A DNA stretch of 16,222 bases from the NCBI GenBank assembly GCA_008501785.1, contig QQUD01000950.1, forward strand, positions 1-16,222. Direction: 5' to 3'. Each line of letters begins with the position of its first letter. Position 1 is the first letter of the stretch. Source of the stretch: Chloroflexota bacterium (GTDB lineage Bacteria > Chloroflexota > Anaerolineae > Promineifilales > Promineifilaceae). Below the pieces are notes generated by a model that had not been told where the DNA came from, searched no databases, and worked only from the letters and a program-made list of their open reading frames with translations. Of this stretch, positions 4,440 to 15,168 are shown piece by piece. Both the position numbers and the translations under genes were made by a program.

Positions 4440-4994
4440 TCAAACGATATATGGAATAAATCGCTTTGTTTGTTTCATATATTTTTCATACGGTTCGCCA
4501 AAGTATGCGATATTTTCTTTTTCTTCTTTGATTGCCGTTATGGTGAGCAGGAGGGTGGCGACCAGTGCCAGGGTCAATTCAATTGAGGAAACTCTCTTCA
4601 AAACGATTCCCCAGCTCAGAAATAGCAGTGAACTATAAAACGGATGGCGAATGGTTTGATAAACTCCGGTAGTGACTAATTCTGTGGTTTTCTCGATACC
4701 CACAAGTGCTGGCGCATCACGTGCTTGATCAATCTTCCCTTTCCTGCGAAATGCTTGTACGCCTTGAACGATCAAGATCAGTGAAATGATGAGGAGACAC
4801 CAGGAGATGAGGTGTATGAAGCTAAACGGATCGATGATCCAATAATTTGCATTCAGCACAAACATGACCAGGATTGTTTCCCAGGCAAAAAAACGATAAA
4901 AACCATGATTTTGCACGTTCCGTAAAGAAGATCGTGACACCCAAACGATACCAATCGTGCCTATTACAAAGATAATCAATTTGATAACGAACAT
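4440..4994 (-). CDS. Isoprenylcysteine carboxyl methyltransferase-like (ICMT/PEMT) integral membrane protein
   Basis: A 184-residue membrane protein. Hydrophobic helices lie at about 3-19, 36-52, 59-79, 121-133 and 138-155. The family signature is complete: 'GVYQTIRHPFYSSLLFLSWG' with the RHPxY motif at 116-120, and the C-terminal 'KEEKENIAYFGEPYEKYMKQ' (156-175) with the E-x-x-x-x-x-x-F/Y-G-x-x-Y-x-x-Y pattern that binds S-adenosylmethionine. Bacterial members are assumed to methylate small or lipid-like substrates; the actual substrate is unknown. The start is fixed by GAGAGGAAGG (5003-4994 upstream side) just before ATG 4994. That ribosome site overlaps the stop of the C_GCAxxG_C_C gene, only 10 bases away, so the two are almost certainly co-transcribed and perhaps translationally coupled. 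Confidence 0.88.
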   Translation of the reverse strand: MFVIKLIIFVIGTIGIVWVSRSSLRNVQNHGFYRFFAWETILVMFVLNANYWIIDPFSFIHLISWCLLIISLILIVQGVQAFRRKGKIDQARDAPALVGIEKTTELVTTGVYQTIRHPFYSSLLFLSWGIVLKRVSSIELTLALVATLLLTITAIKEEKENIAYFGEPYEKYMKQTKRFIPYIV

Positions 4995-5004
4995 TGCCTT
5001 CCTC

Positions 5005-5859
5005 TCAACTGATAGCTAAAACGTCAAAAATTTCCGAGCAGCCTCCATTACATACATAACCGGAATGGTCTTGGATATTCTGAAACTTGCGCCCGACAAT
5101 TTCAGAACATTCGAATTCATAGTCTGTGCATTGTAAAAACCTATCAATCAGCTCAACGGCCTCGGGATTTTCGAAATCTTTTAGACCAGCACCTTCCTTG
5201 CTGCTGTTCATAACAGCGATCCATATTGCGGCTCCTAATGCCCCACAGCCACCTCCGCATAAGCCGATACCCCCTGCAAACCCGGCTGCCATCACTGTAT
5301 GCAAATCAGATGCACCCATCTTTTTTGCTAGCATGGCTGTACAGCTTACCGGAGAAGAGGGTGCTTCGATGTGTTCTTGAGAAAGGGTGGAATTTATCTC
5401 ATCATATGCAATTGGGGCGTAGGCTGCAGCCATGCGAAAGCAGCCAATAGGCCCACCTTTTGCGAAAAACCTTAACATCTGCATGGCAAGATCGCGCTTT
5501 GATGAAGGTTTCCATTCTACTTCAGTGATATCGGAGCAGTTGATATGTTTGTTTTGAGTTTGGAAGGATGCCACAAGCCTTTGAGTTGCCATCATGGCCC
5601 CCATTTCAGCTTGTGGGCCTGGACCATAAAGTTGGTATGCTTGTGCGCCGGCGGCAAGGGCTGCGCCCCACAACATGCCACACTGGTAGCCATATTGCAT
5701 AATGCCGCCTGCAAGGGGTGCGCAGGCTCCTTCCTCGACTTTTAGCGGGTGATCGAAAGAGTCGTCAACGACGCTCATAATTGTTTCCGATCAGGTGCCT
5801 TCTCGCAGAAATGTACGTATTGTTCCAAAGGATGATATTTTACGCTTTGCTGGGGTCAT
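5005..5859 (-). CDS. C_GCAxxG_C_C family redox protein, probable selenoprotein (TGA at 5791-5793 read as Sec)
   Basis: The conventional reading starts at ATG 5778 (257 aa) behind a weak GGAA. However ATG 5859, 27 codons upstream in the same frame, follows a perfect AGGAGG (5872-5867) with 7-base spacing. The leader reads 'MTPAKRKISSFGTIRTFLRE' then G-T, an in-frame TGA as codon 23, S-E-T-I, and joins the known frame; the family usually has Cys at such a spot. The family name reflects its conserved cysteines: here C201 and C205 in 'GLCGGGCGALG', C244, C251, C270 and C274, plus C46 and C60 in the N-terminal half. (C-GCAxxG-C-C family members are known to include selenoproteins.) With Sec the protein is 284 residues, cytoplasmic and without membrane helices; its redox partner is unknown. 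The methyltransferase-like gene follows 10 bases after the stop. Alternatives: a start at 5778 with a spurious leader peptide, or a recent nonsense mutation. Confidence 0.8.
5750..5793 (-). promoter_or_regulatory. SECIS-like stem-loop starting at the in-frame UGA
   Basis: On the minus strand the UGA forms part of TGATCG (5793-5788), which pairs perfectly with CGATCA (5755-5750). Inside, GTCG (5772-5769) pairs with CGAC (5764-5761) around a UUGA loop (5768-5765), extended by G-C and A-U pairs beyond one C-U mismatch. Total length 44 bases, with the apical loop about 23-26 bases after the UGA and containing a G, within the range expected for bacterial SelB-binding SECIS elements. Folded by eye only. 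Confidence 0.6.
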
Positions 5860-5866
5860 GACTACG

Positions 5867-5872
5867 CCTCCT
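5867..5872 (-). promoter_or_regulatory. Strong Shine-Dalgarno AGGAGG that places the start of the selenoprotein gene
   Basis: The site is a full AGGAGG with 7 bases (cgtagtc) before ATG 5859. It has no other open frame to serve than the 22-codon leader that runs into the TGA, which supports read-through. The conventional ATG at 5778 has nothing comparable. Confidence 0.8.
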
Positions 5873-6002: not shown

Positions 6003-6731
6003 TTACAACGATGCTTTATTGTAGATGATGGGCATTTGCCCTTTCCATTTGTTCCATAAAACATCATCAGTAACCAGGTCAGCCATGAAATGCCCTACAT
6101 TGATTCTGCTGGTCACACCTGGATCAAAGATGGCGCTCCTGGTCGGTGAGGGATGCACCGCATAGTCACTAACCTCACCTTCATCGATCAAACTATCAGG
6201 GCGTACAGCTACCCACTCGATAATTCCATCATTTTGACCTACCTGCGTGCGCAGATATTCGGCAGCTTGTTCATTGTCTGAGTGAGGAGGCACCAATAAA
6301 CGAATAAGCCCAATGACAAATTTCTGACCCAATGAAATCTTTTCGGGGATATTGCGGTTGCTGTTGCCAGCGGTGTTCATGAGCACAAACTTGACTGATT
6401 TTTCTGGTTTGTTTGCCTTAATAGCGTTGCATAATCTGCGAGTCGCATCGGTTACAAGTTTGCGTGGATGGCCGAAAATGCCTTTGATATTTGCATTGTG
6501 TCCAAGGCATGAAGCCACTGCATCACAGTCCTTGACATGTTGGGCCATATCGGTGTCGCTAAATTCCAAGACACTTGCCTTGATTACAGCTAAATTATTG
6601 TGATGCCTGATATCATCAGGGAGCTTATCGGGAGATCGTACAATTATCTTAACATTTAGTCCACGATTTAAAAGCTGCTTTACAAGTAGCCGCCCTGTCG
6701 CGCCACTTGCTCCAACCACAAGGATCATCAT
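6003..6731 (-). CDS. NAD(P)-binding atypical SDR family protein
   Basis: A 242-residue Rossmann-fold protein. The first strand and nucleotide loop read 'MMILVVGASGATGRLLVKQL' with G7-A-S-G10-A-T-G13, the GxxGxxG pattern of extended/atypical short-chain dehydrogenases (NmrA-like, NAD(P)H-binding). 'VIKASVLEFSDTDMAQHVKD' and 'DAVASCLGHN' follow as strands 3-4; 'EWVAVRPDSLIDE' is the usual strand 6 segment. A classical YxxxK catalytic pair is not evident, so it may be a sensor or an isomerase/reductase of the atypical group; no substrate can be named. The frame is open upstream to 6902, but GGAGG at 6742-6738 with 6-base spacing fixes ATG 6731. It lies downstream of the cyclase pseudogene and 143 bases before the selenoprotein gene, probably the same transcription unit or with an internal promoter. 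Confidence 0.88.
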   Translation of the reverse strand: MMILVVGASGATGRLLVKQLLNRGLNVKIIVRSPDKLPDDIRHHNNLAVIKASVLEFSDTDMAQHVKDCDAVASCLGHNANIKGIFGHPRKLVTDATRRLCNAIKANKPEKSVKFVLMNTAGNSNRNIPEKISLGQKFVIGLIRLLVPPHSDNEQAAEYLRTQVGQNDGIIEWVAVRPDSLIDEGEVSDYAVHPSPTRSAIFDPGVTSRINVGHFMADLVTDDVLWNKWKGQMPIIYNKASL

Positions 6732-6771
6732 AAATTTCCTCCATCCTCCGGAAGGTGTTTGACAGTTATTG

Positions 6772-7306
6772 CTAGATTTGTTTGCCTTTTGCTTGCCAGC
6801 GGCCGATGGTAACGGCCGTTTCCCCATGCAGCCGAATATCCAGTTGGTCAACTTTGGCCAACGTCCATATTCGCGTAATGCGTAAAACCCATTTCCCCAC
6901 AAATGTGATGGACTTCTTTGTTTGACACTTGTCTAACATCAGGTGACATCGTTTCCACACCAAACGCTGCAATCCTCTGCTGCCCCAACCAGCGGGCTGC
7001 ATTTGCGCTTACCGCAGGTCCATTGTCCCAATTATTTGTTTTGTAGACACGACGATAATGATCCGTATACAGCAGGACTGTATCACCAGACTTTATGCTT
7101 AAATTCGCTCCAGAAAGGGCGCGTTTCAAATCATTAATTTCAATCAGCTCCCGCAGCCCTTTGTCAGACAAATCAAGACAAAGTCCTTCTATGTAAAACA
7201 TCGAAAGCGGCATCGTGTCGATAGACTGTCCTCGATATTGACATGCCATATGACTGATTGCATCAACATGGGTCCCGGTATGTTCACCCAATTCCAGCCG
7301 GTTCAC
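6772..7306 (-). pseudogene. Cyclase-family hydrolase (kynurenine formamidase-like), 5'-truncated and frameshifted
   Basis: From GTG 7306 the frame gives 152 residues beginning 'NRLELGEHTGTHVDAISHM': the HxGTHxDxxxH metal-binding motif of the cyclase/kynurenine formamidase family lies almost at the very start, whereas intact members have about 40-60 residues before it; the upstream frame is closed by TGA at 7336. The middle 'SIKSGDTVLLYTDHY' and 'IAAFGVETMSPD' is typical. At the 3' end the frame reads 'GFTHYANMDVGQS' and stops at 6848, but a shift near 6861-6870 continues as 'LAKVDQLDIRLHGE' to a TAG at 6772, matching the family's 'HYENLANLDxL' ending. So the gene has lost its start and suffered a frameshift. 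It may still be transcribed as part of the cluster. A sequencing error would explain the shift but not the missing start. Confidence 0.7.
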
Positions 7307-8023: not shown

Positions 8024-11000
8024 ATGATTGCTGAAGTTTCAGCATTGCAAACGCCGTTTTGTTTGCAATGCGAATTCATGTTATTAAATGATCAAATATG
8101 TGCTTCTTGCGGATGGAAGCGGCCAAACCAATTTGAAAATGATGGAGATGTTGTTTGGTCTATGTCTCTAGATGGTTCTTTTGCGAAACCATATCACTTA
8201 CCTGCATTATATAAAGATATACTGTTAACTTGTATCGAAAGTAGAATTGCGCGAGATGGAATATTAGCCAGTATAGTTGCCATCAACTTAATAAATGGGA
8301 GCGTTATTTGGTCTCAAGATATGCCTATTGGATGCGTTTCAAGATTCTTAAAAGTTTCCAATGATACTTTATTAGTTGGTTTAGAAAATTTAACTACCTT
8401 AGCTGAGCCTAAAAATAGTTTAATAGCAATTGATCCAAGCACTGGTATACAAAAGTGGTCATTTGAAGTCCCAGCACATAGTCTTTCTGCCCCGGCCATT
8501 ATTGGCGATATTCTTTTTTTTTCAGCATCAAATAGAGCTGGATTTGGATTAAACTTATCTACTGGTCAGCAATGTTGGCATATTAAAAATTTGGTTTCAT
8601 CATGGTGTTCACTCCATGCTACTGCTGGAGATAGCTGCTTTTACCTTGGAGGTCGTACATCTAAAATAAAGCGTATCGATTTGGATGGGAACATTTCGAC
8701 TTTCTTTCATTCAAATGATGAAAAAGATTGGTTTGACATTCCGTTAACTTATGCAGATGGCGTACTGTATGCGATAAGCAGAAATAAACAACTTTATGCA
8801 ATTGATACAGTAAGGCATCAATTGAAATGGGAAGCATCAGTAGCAAGAGGTGCAACTGCTCCTCCTGTTATAGGTCGTTATGTTTTTGTTCCAATAAAGG
8901 ATTTCCCTTCCCGTACCTATAGTTTACGCGCATTTTCCATTGAAACAGGAGATAGAATTTGGCAGTTCGATATCAATAGACACTTTCAAGCACCTGCCAG
9001 CACAATTGATGAAATTGTGTTTATTGGTGGCAATGACCGTAATTTTTATGCACTTGATTCTCTATCTGGCAAAAAATTATGGAGTATTGATTTGGAAAAT
9101 AAAGTTAGAACCGCGCCTATAATTTCTGGTAACCACGTTTGTGTGGGCACGGAACATGGAAAGCTTTATTTAATTCGTTGGCGTCAGGAAGGGGAGCATA
9201 AATTATTAACGGCTAACCATTATCGTGACCTTAAACAATGGTCATTAGCAGGAACGGCCGCAATTATAGAAGGTGATTGGCTGTCTGCGGCCAACGATTA
9301 TGAGCGAGTGGGTGCTTTTTATAAAGCTGCTCAACTATTTGAAAAAGCTGGTGTCTTAGCCCGTGCTGCAAAGCTTTTCTTACATACTTCTAACTATTCA
9401 CAAGCCGCCAAGCTCTATAACCTCTTAAATGACAAGCAGGGAGAAGCAGCGGCTTTAGTAGGATTGAATCAATTTGAACGGGCTGCTGAATTGTATGGCG
9501 AATTAAATATGCATAATCGGGCTGCGGAAATTTACAGGGATGCGGGGCATTTGAATCGTGCGGCTGACCAATTTAACCTTGCTGGGAATTTTTATCATGC
9601 AGCCGAAATATATAAAGAACTTGATAAACATGAATCTGCAGCTGAAATGTATCAAAAGGCAGATATGAATGATTTGGCTGTTCAAAGTTGGTTACAAGCT
9701 GATGAACCTTATGAAGCTGCCCGTGTTCTGGAAAAAACAAAAAAATTTGGTAGAGCATCAAAATTATTAGAATCTGAAGGTGATATTGATAATGCTGCTG
9801 CCGTTTGGCTACGACAAGGTAATGTAGAACAGGCAGCAATCATTTACAAACGGGCAAAACGCTGGGTACAAGCTGCCGAGCTGTACGAATCGAATTATGA
9901 ACGCGAAAAAGCAGCACGCCTTTATGAGCAAGGTGGAAGACTACAGAAGGCTGCAAAATTATATCTTGCAAATTTACAATTTGGTAAGGCTGCTGAATTA
10001 TTTATTCAAATGCAAGATGCCATTTCGGCTGCCAAAGCATATGAAAAGGAACGAAATTGGCGTCGAGCTGCCCAACTCTATTTGTCTATAAGCCCACCAC
10101 TTTATCAGAATGCTGGTCAATGTTATGAAAACTTAGAAGCATGGCAAGAAGCAGCAAATACCTATGAAGATGGCAAATTCTATGAAGATGCTATTCGAAA
10201 TTGGTTGTCGTGTGGCAATTCTAAACGAGCGGCTAAGTTATTAAGTCGTAAAGGCAACACATTTCAAGCCGCGCAGCTATTAGAGAATGAAGGGGAACAA
10301 CTAGAAGCAGCCCATTTGTATTTAAAAAATGGGAGCGTGAGTGACGCAATTCGTCTTTATCGGCTATCTGGAAATGAGGAACATGCACTTGAGGTTTTGG
10401 TACAACAGGAGGCATGGGACGAATATAGGGCGCTAGCAATTGAACTAAAAAGGTATGAAAGAGAAGCCGAAGCCTGTGTCGCATTAGCGGAACAATCATC
10501 ACGTACAGAAGCCTATAAACTAGATATCGCTGCTGCTCAGGCTTATGAAAGGGCAGCTCAAAAATACGAAGAAGAAAATATTCATAACCGAACAGATGAG
10601 GAAATTGCACAGTTATGGCTGCTTGCTGCCAAGTATTATGAGTTAGGAGATTCTTCTGACGAGAGGATTGCCAACTGTGAGCGCCAAGCAAAACGATTGC
10701 GTAAGCTCCCAGAAATTGTTATTGATGTCAAAGCGCAAAAGGAATTAGTGTTAAATGAGTATCATCGTTTGCTAGTGCGTGTAAAAAATGTTGGTTATGG
10801 TGAGGCATTCGATATTACTTTTAAAGTTATAAATGATCAATTTGAGAGCGATTTGCAATTTACACAAGATTTTTCTGGCGTATTATTGCCGGATAAAATG
10901 AAAAAATCTCTCTTTTCTGTTAAACCGAAAACGTCAGGTTCTGCAGTGCCAATGAAAATCTTGCTCACGTATCGATTACCAGATGAAACTCTGGCAAAAC

Positions 11001-11353
11001 GTACGATTGCATTAGAAGTTCAAGTTCACCCTTCTAGTTCAAAACTTACTGCAACAGGTCAATTAGGTCATCAACCTCTTATTGACATGTATGAAGATAC
11101 AGGTTTTCATCAAAGTGCTATTTCATTATTGGTGAAAAAAATTGAAAAACATTTCAACTTGCAGGAATTACATCAACTCTCATTTAGTTTAAATATTGAT
11201 TGGGAGAACTTGGAAGGTACAACAAAATACAAGAAAGCATTTGAATTAGTTAGATACTGCCAGGTTCGTTATAGGATGCCAGAATTGATTGGTAGTTTAT
11301 CTGAAAATCGTCCAGTGAATGTGAATTGGCGGGAAGGGTTTGATGACCATTAA
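8024..11353 (+). CDS. Zinc ribbon - PQQ beta-propeller - 13-residue-repeat alpha-solenoid - CARDB-like - EAD protein
   Basis: A 1109-residue cytosolic multidomain protein. (1) Zinc ribbon, C13xxC16 and C26xxC29. (2) PQQ-type beta-propeller, about 42-395, with blade signatures such as 'LIAIDPSTGIQKW', 'LYAIDTVRHQLKW' and 'FYALDSLSGKKLW', about seven blades, so one ring. (3) Alpha-solenoid 422-787: 28 consecutive units of AAxLYxxxGxxxx, 20 of them exactly 13 residues with no gap, one of 15 (682-696), then seven of 13; more helices follow to 893. (4) Beta-rich CARDB/Ig-like domain, about 896-1010. (5) C-terminal effector-associated domain (EAD), about 1030-1105, with 'HFNLQELHQLSFSLNIDWEN' and 'FELVRYCQVRYRMPELI'. 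There is no catalytic domain, so a sensor or scaffold is inferred. Two Ser/Thr kinase genes follow at 38 and 21 bases, probably one operon. Confidence 0.88.
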   Translation: MIAEVSALQTPFCLQCEFMLLNDQICASCGWKRPNQFENDGDVVWSMSLDGSFAKPYHLPALYKDILLTCIESRIARDGILASIVAINLINGSVIWSQDMPIGCVSRFLKVSNDTLLVGLENLTTLAEPKNSLIAIDPSTGIQKWSFEVPAHSLSAPAIIGDILFFSASNRAGFGLNLSTGQQCWHIKNLVSSWCSLHATAGDSCFYLGGRTSKIKRIDLDGNISTFFHSNDEKDWFDIPLTYADGVLYAISRNKQLYAIDTVRHQLKWEASVARGATAPPVIGRYVFVPIKDFPSRTYSLRAFSIETGDRIWQFDINRHFQAPASTIDEIVFIGGNDRNFYALDSLSGKKLWSIDLENKVRTAPIISGNHVCVGTEHGKLYLIRWRQEGEHKLLTANHYRDLKQWSLAGTAAIIEGDWLSAANDYERVGAFYKAAQLFEKAGVLARAAKLFLHTSNYSQAAKLYNLLNDKQGEAAALVGLNQFERAAELYGELNMHNRAAEIYRDAGHLNRAADQFNLAGNFYHAAEIYKELDKHESAAEMYQKADMNDLAVQSWLQADEPYEAARVLEKTKKFGRASKLLESEGDIDNAAAVWLRQGNVEQAAIIYKRAKRWVQAAELYESNYEREKAARLYEQGGRLQKAAKLYLANLQFGKAAELFIQMQDAISAAKAYEKERNWRRAAQLYLSISPPLYQNAGQCYENLEAWQEAANTYEDGKFYEDAIRNWLSCGNSKRAAKLLSRKGNTFQAAQLLENEGEQLEAAHLYLKNGSVSDAIRLYRLSGNEEHALEVLVQQEAWDEYRALAIELKRYEREAEACVALAEQSSRTEAYKLDIAAAQAYERAAQKYEEENIHNRTDEEIAQLWLLAAKYYELGDSSDERIANCERQAKRLRKLPEIVIDVKAQKELVLNEYHRLLVRVKNVGYGEAFDITFKVINDQFESDLQFTQDFSGVLLPDKMKKSLFSVKPKTSGSAVPMKILLTYRLPDETLAKRTIALEVQVHPSSSKLTATGQLGHQPLIDMYEDTGFHQSAISLLVKKIEKHFNLQELHQLSFSLNIDWENLEGTTKYKKAFELVRYCQVRYRMPELIGSLSENRPVNVNWREGFDDH
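9287..10384 (+). repeat. 28-unit 13-residue helical repeat (encoded, inside the propeller protein)
   Basis: Codons 422-787 encode repeats aligned on an Ala-Ala pair: examples AAQLFEKAGVLAR, AAEIYRDAGHLNR, AARLYEQGGRLQK, AAHLYLKNGSVSD. The consensus AAxLYxxxGxxxx holds with constant 13-codon spacing over the first 20 units. The DNA copies are strongly diverged, so this is an old array kept by selection, not a recent expansion. Confidence 0.85.
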
Positions 11354-11391
11354 TAAAACTTCCCAAAGAGTTAAAAAGGAAACAGTTTATT

Positions 11392-13641
11392 ATGTCTGAA
11401 ACTTTTCCCTATATGTTTGGAAAATATAAAATAGAATCTCAATTGGGTCGCGGCGGTTTTGGCACAGTTTACCTTGCTCAAGATAATAAGCTAGAACGTC
11501 CTGTCGCAATCAAAATAATGGCTCCAGCGCTGATGCGAGATGCCAATTGGGTAAATCGATTTCAGCAAGAAGCTCGTGTAATGGCAAGACTTGATCACCC
11601 CAATATTGTGCCGATTTATGAGATTGGTGAGGAAAACGGCCGTCTTTTTCTAGCAATGAAATACATCAGCGGTCCAAGCCTGGCTGCTCGCATTGCAAAT
11701 CATAATAAGCTGGAAATTGATAAAGTCCATTCCATCATGGGGCAGATTGCTGACGCCCTGGATTATGCTTATCATCAAGGAGTCATTCATCGAGATATTA
11801 AACCATCCAATATTTTGATGAATGGAAATACGCCAGCCATGACCGATTTTGGATTTGCACGGCTCCTAAAAAATAATAGCCAGACTTTCAGCTTGAGTGG
11901 GGGTATTGTTGGTACACCAGCATATATCGCACCTGAAGTATGGGAAGAAAACGAACAAGGTCGAGCCAGCGATATTTATGCACTTGGCTGCATTTTGTAT
12001 GAAATGTTGACGGGTGAGGTGTTGTTTCAAGGCGATTCAGTTCCGGCAATTATGCATGCTCATTTCAAACCACCTCAATTTTCTCAAAATCATTTAAATA
12101 AAGTACCCAAAATCTATTGGGACACGATTCGCACAGCGCTTGCCCGTGATCCAAAAGAACGATTTGCCACTGCAACTGCAATCGTGGACTCTTTTTCACA
12201 GACTGCTTCCGACATGTTTACTGCGCCCTATGCAAACCTTTTACGCGCAATGAAGGAACAACGATGGCCAGATGCAATACAAATTGCCAACAATATTCTT
12301 AGCAAAAATCCGGATTATCGTGATGTTGAGGCAAAAAAAAGCAAAGCGCAGCAGTTCCTGTGGGCATCAGAATGGAAAGAACAGGCTTTGTCATCATTTA
12401 ACTCAAAGGATTATGACGCTGCGCTTCTTTCTATTAAGCGTTGGCAAGAAATCAACCCTGACGACCCCGTGGCTAAAGACCTGCTGAAAAAAATCAAACA
12501 AGCTCAAAATCCGCCGCCTGTAAGTACAGTGCCCCCACCAATTGTAAATGATGCATATAGCCAACAAATCGAAGAACCGGCAAAGTTTAGGACAAATCGT
12601 GTAAAGGAACCAGTTGAGAAAAGTACCAGTGCCAGAATCGACTATAAAAGGGTAGAAGTTTTGCGGCTGAAGAAGATTGCGTCAAATGCAATTTCCAGGC
12701 GAGATTGGAAAACGGCCGAAAAAATAATGACCCGGCTAAAAGGTGTCGCCCAAGACGATCCAGAAATTTATCTTCTTGATAATCGATTGATGTCAGGCAA
12801 AGAAGAAGCGGAAAGAGAACAGAATATTGCTTTTTGGCGTGATCAAGCCAAAGATGCGGTAAGTATGCAGCAATGGCACTCTGCAGAAAAATTAGTAAAG
12901 CGCTGGCTTAGTTTAGCTCCTGATGATAATGAAGCAAAACATTTAATTGATGTCATAAATAATGCCATGATAGAGCAAGAAGTTGAAGAAGAGCCTCAGG
13001 AAGAACTAGTATATTCACTTCCTCCTAGAAAAAATTTGACAAAGCGCATCTTAATTGGTATAGGATTGTTGATTTTGATAGGAACACTCCTTTCAATAGG
13101 AGCCTATATATATTATGATGCGCTAAACTATGCTAGGAGCCAGACGATAACTGAAGTAGTAGAGGTAACACGAGTTGTTGAAGTTTCAATTCCAACCCTT
13201 TCTAATAATGACAAAACAATTTCACCTGAGATTAGAACAGAAATAGTAAACTTATTAGCTGGTGCTTTATTAGAATACAAATTCGCAGCGTATAATTTGG
13301 ATTCGAGTACTATAAACGGCTTTTATGCAGGTAATCGGCTTGAGGAAATTGATAATTTAATTAATGTAGCTAAAGGTTCAAATTCAAAAACGGACATAAA
13401 ATACGATATTTCAAGTAGTTATTTTCACGATATCGAATTGGTTAGCAATTTCAAAAGAGTTGTAGATATATGTTTATATCGACAAATTACAATTTATTCA
13501 GATGGTCAGGCATGGTTTGAAGAAAAATCTTTTTCTCATGTCCCTCAAATAATAACAATTGAATATCTAAATACATCTTCTGGCCCGAGTTGGTTTATTA
13601 CAGACGTTGAAATTCTAGAGCAACCGGGATTTTGTCAATAA
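11392..13641 (+). CDS. Transmembrane Ser/Thr protein kinase with TPR-like linker and extracytoplasmic domain
   Basis: A 749-residue Hanks-type kinase. The kinase domain (about 12-270) has all catalytic residues: glycine loop G19-R-G-G-F-G24, K41 in 'VAIKIM', D135 in 'HRDIKPSN', D152 in 'DFGFAR', and 'GTPAYIAPE'. It is followed by four TPR-like helical pairs (about 280-370 and 420-530; each with a W/Y-x-x-A core and ending 'NPDD/APDD'), split by a proline-rich linker. One membrane helix (about 553-575) leads to 'EVVEVTRVVEV' (588-598), a linker typical of Chloroflexota surface proteins, and an extracytoplasmic domain of 150 residues that could be NTF2-like (low certainty). So the protein can sense outside and phosphorylate inside. 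It is 38 bases after the EAD protein and 21 before a second kinase with a closely similar catalytic domain. The ribosome site AAAGGA is rather far (about 11 bases). Confidence 0.92.
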   Translation: MSETFPYMFGKYKIESQLGRGGFGTVYLAQDNKLERPVAIKIMAPALMRDANWVNRFQQEARVMARLDHPNIVPIYEIGEENGRLFLAMKYISGPSLAARIANHNKLEIDKVHSIMGQIADALDYAYHQGVIHRDIKPSNILMNGNTPAMTDFGFARLLKNNSQTFSLSGGIVGTPAYIAPEVWEENEQGRASDIYALGCILYEMLTGEVLFQGDSVPAIMHAHFKPPQFSQNHLNKVPKIYWDTIRTALARDPKERFATATAIVDSFSQTASDMFTAPYANLLRAMKEQRWPDAIQIANNILSKNPDYRDVEAKKSKAQQFLWASEWKEQALSSFNSKDYDAALLSIKRWQEINPDDPVAKDLLKKIKQAQNPPPVSTVPPPIVNDAYSQQIEEPAKFRTNRVKEPVEKSTSARIDYKRVEVLRLKKIASNAISRRDWKTAEKIMTRLKGVAQDDPEIYLLDNRLMSGKEEAEREQNIAFWRDQAKDAVSMQQWHSAEKLVKRWLSLAPDDNEAKHLIDVINNAMIEQEVEEEPQEELVYSLPPRKNLTKRILIGIGLLILIGTLLSIGAYIYYDALNYARSQTITEVVEVTRVVEVSIPTLSNNDKTISPEIRTEIVNLLAGALLEYKFAAYNLDSSTINGFYAGNRLEEIDNLINVAKGSNSKTDIKYDISSSYFHDIELVSNFKRVVDICLYRQITIYSDGQAWFEEKSFSHVPQIITIEYLNTSSGPSWFITDVEILEQPGFCQ

Positions 13642-13662
13642 GTTAATTGTGAGGCAGTAAAA

Positions 13663-15168
13663 ATGAATGAATATGGTTACCTTGAACAATTTGGGAAATA
13701 TCGAATTGAAAATATGATCGGTCAAGGTGGATTCGGTACCGTATATCGGGCTACTGATACCAAGCTGGATCGCCCTATTGCACTTAAAAAACTGGATCCT
13801 TTGTTAATGCGCGATACGGTTTGGGTATCTAGATTTCGCCGGGAAGCCAAAATGATGGCAAAACTTGAACATCCTAATATTGTGCCTATTCATGAAATTG
13901 ATGAAATTGATGGGCAGCTATTTATTGCGATGAAATTTATCGACGGCCCAAATTTAGCAGAACGAATTAAACATCAAGGGCGATTAGAATGGGGGCAGAT
14001 TGTACATATTGTACAACAAATCGGCCTGGCATTGGATTATGCGAATAGTCTTAATGTTGTTCATCGAGACCTGAAGCCGTCTAATGTATTGTTGAAGGAT
14101 CAGTATGCTTATTTAACGGATTTTGGCTTTGCTCGTGTGGTTGGTGATAACAGCCATAGCATCACAGTAAGCGGCAGTGTGGTGGGTACACCAGCATACA
14201 TCGCCCCCGAAATTTGGGAAGGGAAAACGTCAGATCGCACGACTGATTATTATGCTTTAGGATGTATTCTTTATGAGATGGTCATGGGTCAAGTTCTCTT
14301 TCAGGGTGACTCTGTTCCTTCTATTATGTTGAAACATTTTAAACCACCGCCTTTACCAAGTCGGCTGCCAGCTGATGTGCCAGCTCATGTAATTCAAGTT
14401 ATCGAAAAAGCCCTTGCTCGCAATCCAGCAGATCGATATACGACAGCCAAAGAGATGCTGCAAGCCTTAAATATTAAACAAAATAAAGAGCCAAGTTCAG
14501 ATATCTCCACGCATTTAAAAGAGGCTGCAAGGTTGGCACTTGATAAATTGGATTTAGTGAAGGCACGCACTTATATCAATTCTTTACGAGAAGCCGCTCC
14601 TAACAGTCCAGAAATTGCCCCATTGGTACAACGATATAAACAAAGTGTAGAATCATTGACAAGAAAGGCACCCGTTGAACGTAGGCCCCCTGAACCTACT
14701 GTGTCATTTCAACAATCAGATTACGGAGCTACAAAAAGATGTGCATATTGTGCAGAGGAAATCAAGGCAATGGCTAAGGTTTGCCGCTATTGCAAACGAG
14801 AACAACCGAGTGTACCGCCCAGGAAAAATGTATCAAGCTCAGACTTTACAAATACATCAGGTCAAGGGAAATTAGCAGTTGTGCCTCAAGAAGCACAAGG
14901 GTGGCATTGGGGAGCCTTCCTCCTCAATTGGATTTGGGGATTAGGCAACAATTCGTATATCGCTTTACTCTGCTTAATTCCTTATGTCAATTTAGTTATG
15001 GTTTTTGTGGTAGGCGCAAAAGGGAAAGAATGGGCATGGAGAAATAAACAGTGGGATAGTATTGAACATTTTACCAGTACCCAGAAAAAGTGGACAAAAT
15101 GGGGTGCTGGAATTTGGATCGCCAGTTTCATTCTAAGCTTTTTAATAATAATCGCTGCTGAGTTTTAG
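13663..15168 (+). CDS. Ser/Thr protein kinase with zinc ribbon and WGAFLLNW-type membrane domain
   Basis: A 501-residue Hanks-type kinase. Kinase domain about 13-270: glycine loop G20-Q-G-G-F-G25, K42 in 'IALKKLD', D136 in 'HRDLKPSN', D153 in 'DFGFAR', 'GTPAYIAPE'; all catalytic residues present. Then one TPR-like helical pair (about 285-330), a short linker, a zinc ribbon C360xxC363-x10-C374xxC377, and a C-terminal hydrophobic domain (414-501) beginning 'WHWGAFLLNWIWGLGNNSY' and including 'GKEWAWRNKQWDSIEHF', a widespread bacterial membrane module of unknown function usually found behind zinc ribbons, with about three membrane helices. The catalytic domain shares long identical stretches with the preceding kinase (for example 'GDSVP.IM..HFKPP'), suggesting tandem duplication with exchanged tails. 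GAGG at 13650-13653 lies 9 bases before the start. Substrates are unknown; the EAD protein and the sister kinase are natural candidates. Confidence 0.92.
   Translation: MNEYGYLEQFGKYRIENMIGQGGFGTVYRATDTKLDRPIALKKLDPLLMRDTVWVSRFRREAKMMAKLEHPNIVPIHEIDEIDGQLFIAMKFIDGPNLAERIKHQGRLEWGQIVHIVQQIGLALDYANSLNVVHRDLKPSNVLLKDQYAYLTDFGFARVVGDNSHSITVSGSVVGTPAYIAPEIWEGKTSDRTTDYYALGCILYEMVMGQVLFQGDSVPSIMLKHFKPPPLPSRLPADVPAHVIQVIEKALARNPADRYTTAKEMLQALNIKQNKEPSSDISTHLKEAARLALDKLDLVKARTYINSLREAAPNSPEIAPLVQRYKQSVESLTRKAPVERRPPEPTVSFQQSDYGATKRCAYCAEEIKAMAKVCRYCKREQPSVPPRKNVSSSDFTNTSGQGKLAVVPQEAQGWHWGAFLLNWIWGLGNNSYIALLCLIPYVNLVMVFVVGAKGKEWAWRNKQWDSIEHFTSTQKKWTKWGAGIWIASFILSFLIIIAAEF

Follow-up and report, generated by a model that had tools for sequence, protein, structure and literature searches.

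A gene on the reverse strand of the window (the whole 16,222-nucleotide stretch of DNA analysed here) almost certainly reads codon 23, a UGA, as selenocysteine (Sec) at the site of its relatives' first conserved cysteine, as judged from sequence comparison. The predicted reading frame lies at 5005..5859 (-), ends in TGA and specifies 284 residues with Sec23, arranged as a tandem of C_GCAxxG_C_C domains (PF09719). The first-pass annotation had proposed a selenoprotein here, and this interpretation is supported by a column that holds Cys or TGA, by a conserved hairpin and by Sec machinery in the relatives' genomes. Two results go beyond what had been claimed before: the tandem architecture, and a SECIS-like hairpin in which some pairs change on both sides.

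An in-frame TGA follows a translated leader

The full frame opens with an ATG at 5859-5857 (-), meets a TGA after 22 codons at 5793-5791 (the predicted Sec codon, 5791..5793 (-)), and is then open for 261 codons up to a TGA stop at 5007-5005. A Shine-Dalgarno sequence, AGGAGG, stands at 5867..5872 (-) with a spacer of 7 nt to the ATG. Mechanical ORF calling chooses instead the ATG of codon 28 at 5776..5778 (-), where the database copy of the protein also begins; no Shine-Dalgarno sequence is present at normal spacing before this ATG (upstream letters CACCTGATCGGAAACAATT). The first-pass description of this region is therefore accurate in all its coordinates (AGGAGG-7 nt-ATG at 5872-5857, TGA after 22 codons, open frame beyond), in calling the ribosome site at the conventional start 5778 poor, and in warning that an annotation from 5778 loses the N-terminus. 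Of the 22 sequences (relatives plus window), 19 have GGAG, GAGG or AGGA ahead of the assigned start; no ATG start was assigned in L047 and L053, the former lacking such a site and the latter having one.

Across the 16 leader codons before the TGA, pairwise differences among the relatives and the window amount to 0.263 at the first codon position, 0.170 at the second and 0.595 at the third, and this concentration at the third position marks the leader as translated. It also aligns with the N-terminus of the Cys homologues. Because the TGA, the leader with its mark of translated sequence and the frame all recur in 21 relatives, the read-through frame is more than a product of chance. The base after UGA 23 is U, which we counted against a Sec reading.

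Codon 23 is Cys in full-length proteins and TGA in related loci

We examined all of the best 120 of 3304 protein matches. Every one of the 60 full-length relatives among them (at least 268 residues) has Cys at the codon-23 column; full-length database proteins are unable by construction to show a TGA, and the point is that only Cys occurs there. The other 60 relatives, one of which (P0001) is the window's own protein, are short, and 59 of them begin at the codon-28 position, 54 with M and 5 with L; the mis-start is thus general among the 120 listed relatives. The remaining short relative, P0009, starts further upstream and contains the Cys. One Cys form, P0003, retains MSVVD, a sequence typical of Sec forms, and its sequence may reflect a recent Sec-to-Cys change.

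At the DNA level, a contig scan yielded three loci, two from Chloroflexi and one from Anaerolineae. Counting the genome at the centre of each search, loci were found around G001 in 1 of 400 genomes of its phylum and 2 of 56 of its order, around G002 in 7 of 251 genomes of its order and 15 of 396 of its class, and around G003 in 7 of 251 genomes of its order (six of these also belong to the G002 order set); the gene is thus uncommon in the phylum, orders and class searched. Codon 23 is TGA in all 22 loci that cover the column, namely 21 relatives from 21 genomes and the window. Not counted among the 22 are a distant paralogue (L028, 31% identity, match from residue 46) and two fragments without the codon-23 column (L021 and L059; in L021 the reported TGA adjoins a stretch containing N), and L012, L022 and L029 duplicate L001-L003. 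No second in-frame stop occurs in the 20 full-length frames, window included, and no Cys form of the gene turned up in DNA searches of the relatives' genomes.

The homologue alignment that had been proposed as a check on the TGA standing in place of a family Cys accordingly gave Cys at codon 23 in the proteins (60 of 60 full-length, among the best 120 of 3304) and TGA in 21 of 21 genomic relatives, an in-frame UGA exchanging with Cys in homologues as is expected of a selenoprotein. Homologues with neither Cys nor Sec at this column and with a dissimilar leader had been named as grounds for rejection; we saw instead a Cys column and an aligned leader.

A conserved SECIS-like hairpin lies just downstream of the UGA

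Starting 14 nt past the UGA, at 5759..5776 (-), is a predicted bacterial SECIS hairpin of 18 nt (GAGCGUC-GUU-GACG-A-CUC) with apical loop GUU and a UGA-to-loop spacing of 21 nt. Bacterial SECIS rules, as given in an excerpt of a review (PMC13188914), call for a loop of 3-9 nt that has a G at its first or second position, 16-37 nt of spacing and an energy of -7.5 kcal/mol or lower. The hairpin falls within the published limits for loop length, loop G and spacing; as for energy, the 48-nt fold of the window (-14.6 kcal/mol) passes and the core alone (-6.9 kcal/mol) misses, and 48-nt folds at or below -7.5 kcal/mol are reached by 21 of the 22 sequences.

The 48 nt from the TGA onward align without gaps in the 22 sequences. 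Paired cells make up 92.2% across these 22 distinct sequences (matched by 0 of 500 shuffles), the covariation score is 0.221 (equalled by no shuffle out of 500 and by none of 6 slid versions) and two-sided changes occur at 3 of 7 pairs (a count reached by 5 of 500 shuffles), figures to be read with the knowledge that related sequences can outscore shuffles without any structure. A C-G to G-C swap at columns 21-31 is seen in five sequences, and the measure of further pair types stands at shuffle level, its value being reached by 483 of 500. RNAalifold returned a near-identical hairpin with a weak energy of -2.87 kcal/mol, and a variant with a moved bulge was weaker. The minimum-energy fold contains the three loop-adjacent pairs in 15 of 22 sequences at 48 nt and in 18 of 22 for the 23-nt core; among the four that lack them in the core, L052 and L057 fold into a different hairpin with loop AGUU in the same place, and the cores of L047 and L058 are not clean. 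The stability of a 66-nt fragment of the window is not unusual against shuffles (z -1.37, that is, 1.37 s.d. below), and Rfam gave no match at the hairpin.

Two hairpin types of differing sequence thus share one place after the UGA, that of L052 and L057 and that of the other TGA loci. Codon 28 is UUG in L052 and L057, and the five short proteins that start with L probably have UUG at codon 28 too.

Constraint on the nucleotide sequence is visible in the coding region as well. Over codons +6 to +12, synonymous identity is 0.81 as compared to 0.46 in the rest of the gene (20 sequences, the partial L027 and L058 omitted; a smaller, earlier run used 8 sequences, without L027), and none of 20,000 random 7-codon sets reached 0.81. 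When all 260 seven-codon windows are ranked by synonymous conservation, the top eight start at codons +2 to +9, and the hairpin coincides with this peak of the gene. These data point to a SECIS hairpin just downstream of the UGA, with the fold exceptions counted above.

Relatives' genomes encode selenocysteine machinery

SelB scored above its cut-off in 20 of the 21 genomes of TGA-bearing relatives (3/3 and 17/18 in two sets). In 8 of the 17 the best match is confined to the first 345-361 of the 581 profile positions, and the open frames of these eight partial matches run to 599-855 codons. SelA was found in 19 of the 21 (8/8 and 11/13; the 8/8 set was 10/10 in the full search, which included two genomes without a readable TGA column), such that each of the 21 genomes has SelA, SelB or both: G808 and G818 have SelB without SelA, and G791 has SelA without SelB. 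SelD was present in all 8 TGA-bearing genomes tested (10/10 in the full search), and a tRNA-Sec above cut-off in 2 of 3 relatives' genomes tested. Since 201 of the 251 genomes in the order of G002 carry selA, its presence in the relatives, taken alone, is weak evidence; this count shows how common the Sec trait is in that order, and not that the trait goes with the present gene.

The best SelD match itself carries one in-frame TGA in 10 of 10 relatives' genomes. In the 8 loci read (L038-L045) the residue number of this TGA does not vary and its surroundings read CAG or CSG-TGA-ASK, and SelD therefore looks like a selenoprotein too.

The protein is a tandem of two C_GCAxxG_C_C domains

The read-through product scores 69.4 bits against PF09719 (cut-off 27), and its best stretch begins at residue 23, that is, at the predicted Sec codon, which falls on profile position 3. 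It also exceeds the cut-off of TIGR01909 ('C-GCAxxG-C-C family (seleno)protein'; 49.8 bits, cut-off 47.4). Taken separately, domain 1 (residues 1-152; 5404..5859 (-)) reaches 45.9 bits with PF09719 and contains Sec23, Cys60, Cys108 and Cys140, and domain 2 (residues 153-284; 5008..5403 (-)) reaches 33.3 bits and contains Cys173, Cys205, Cys251 and Cys274, both against the cut-off of 27. A direct profile comparison of the two halves gave no significant similarity.

Cys 60, 108, 140, 173, 205, 251 and 274 are Cys in 68 of 68 alignment rows. Together with Sec23, this conservation indicates four thiol or selenol positions per domain, with Sec only at the first position of domain 1. Membership of the family is thus reflected both in profile scores above curated cut-offs and in four conserved Cys per domain, counting Sec/Cys23; the conserved Cys were matched to the letters of the family name by eye. 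The predicted fold is helical, and a search for a convincing match among solved structures found none.

Selenocysteine insertion and its alternatives

We are highly confident of a two-domain, redox-type protein translated from 5859, in which UGA 23 is decoded as Sec by way of a downstream hairpin that recruits SelB. Translation would begin at 5859, and the hairpin within the coding sequence, 14 nt past the UGA, would bring in SelB with Sec-tRNA(Sec), which would insert Sec at UGA 23. Sec would then stand for the first of the four conserved Cys of domain 1, with four Cys remaining in domain 2. Sec23 as nucleophile and the invariant Cys of domain 1 could carry out a thiol-selenol redox reaction, a role suggested by the family label 'putative redox-active' together with the exchange of Sec and Cys. 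That Sec is actually inserted in the source organism is what we infer from these comparisons.

The outcome of ORF calling, and the form in which databases store 59 of the 60 short relatives (best 120 of 3304), would also follow if the protein truly started at the ATG at 5778, leaving the upstream frame untranslated and the TGA a chance stop. We consider this very improbable, for that start is without a ribosome site, 21 relatives conserve the leader at the protein level, this leader can be aligned with the N-terminal end of the Cys homologues, and the Pfam match already begins at residue 23. A frame open across the TGA is equally what one would see if the codon stood for another amino acid, through a reassigned code or near-cognate read-through. 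TGA terminates this gene and three others among the 13 ORFs listed in the window, which argues against a global reassignment, and Cys alone occupies the site in the 60 full-length relatives (best 120 of 3304); with the conserved hairpin and the sel genes of the relatives also opposing it, insertion of another amino acid is, in our estimate, about half as probable as a start at 5778.

A disrupted gene or a sequencing error would look much alike in any single record with a single in-frame stop. Here the TGA is shared with 21 other loci and the 20 full-length frames hold no further stop, which makes an accident of this kind the least probable of the explanations considered, to the point of being negligible.

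Neighboring genes

The gene that follows the selenoprotein gene after 10 nt, at 4440..4994 (-), encodes a PEMT/ICMT-like membrane methyltransferase and is possibly co-transcribed with it. No match to this methyltransferase appeared in the flanks examined at the relatives' loci. Where the window has the methyltransferase, five relatives (L023, L027, L046, L048 and L050) have an ORF starting MKAI downstream of the selenoprotein gene; we take the sequence after MKAI to be typical of NAD(P)-dependent alcohol dehydrogenases.

On the other side, a putative cyclase (PF04199; 6848-7306 (-)) is missing the first 20 profile positions and has several stops upstream of its GTG, and it may be 5'-truncated or decayed. 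The ORF of an NAD(P)-binding protein (6003-6902 (-)) overlaps that of the cyclase; its domain begins at residue 58-64, and translation probably starts from an internal ATG close to residue 57-58. Further along, 8024-15168 (+) holds a large ORF rich in repeats (1109 residues) and, after it, two ORFs that by eye resemble protein kinases.

Discussion

That this redox family includes selenoproteins, as the first-pass annotation stated, is borne out by the description of TIGR01909 and by the lists of two reviews, each consulted as an excerpt: a 2026 review (PMC13188914) lists form 1 and form 2 of the 'C-GCAxxG-C-C family protein' among prokaryotic selenoproteins, and a 2022 review (PMC9312934) lists one Sec form of the family. 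Sec forms of the family are thus already catalogued, and it is well supported that the present protein adds to the known selenoproteins. Among the titles and abstract openings returned for the family name and accessions, none addressed the function of the family.

These results matter in two respects. A systematic annotation error leaves 59 of the 60 short relatives (best 120 of 3304) without their N-terminus and likely reactive Sec, and the parallel occurrence of this protein in a Sec group and a Cys group offers a handle on the role of a redox family. More tentatively, with somewhat worse than even chances, the protein could represent a third distinct Sec form, a single-chain tandem whose selenol domain hands electrons on to its all-Cys domain. 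Such a form would have escaped notice in databases because its members are uniformly started too late, at the ATG or TTG that comes right after the UGA and lies within the SECIS region itself.

The hairpin resembles the bacterial SECIS consensus, as excerpted from PMC13188914, in its small loop, in a G followed by U at the loop start and in a distance of 21 nt from the UGA, a likeness by consensus rules and not by the sequence of a characterised element. Similarity to the DVU_1555 family C-GCAxxG-C-C protein (NF045669) is partial, at 41 bits far under the cut-off of 103 bits, and forms 1 and 2 of the review are compared here as they are listed in the excerpt of PMC13188914, not by their sequences. 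With the TIGR01909 / PF09719 family the protein shares scores above both cut-offs and a PF09719 match that opens with Sec, but it differs in being a tandem of two domains, 284 residues long, with Sec in domain 1 only.
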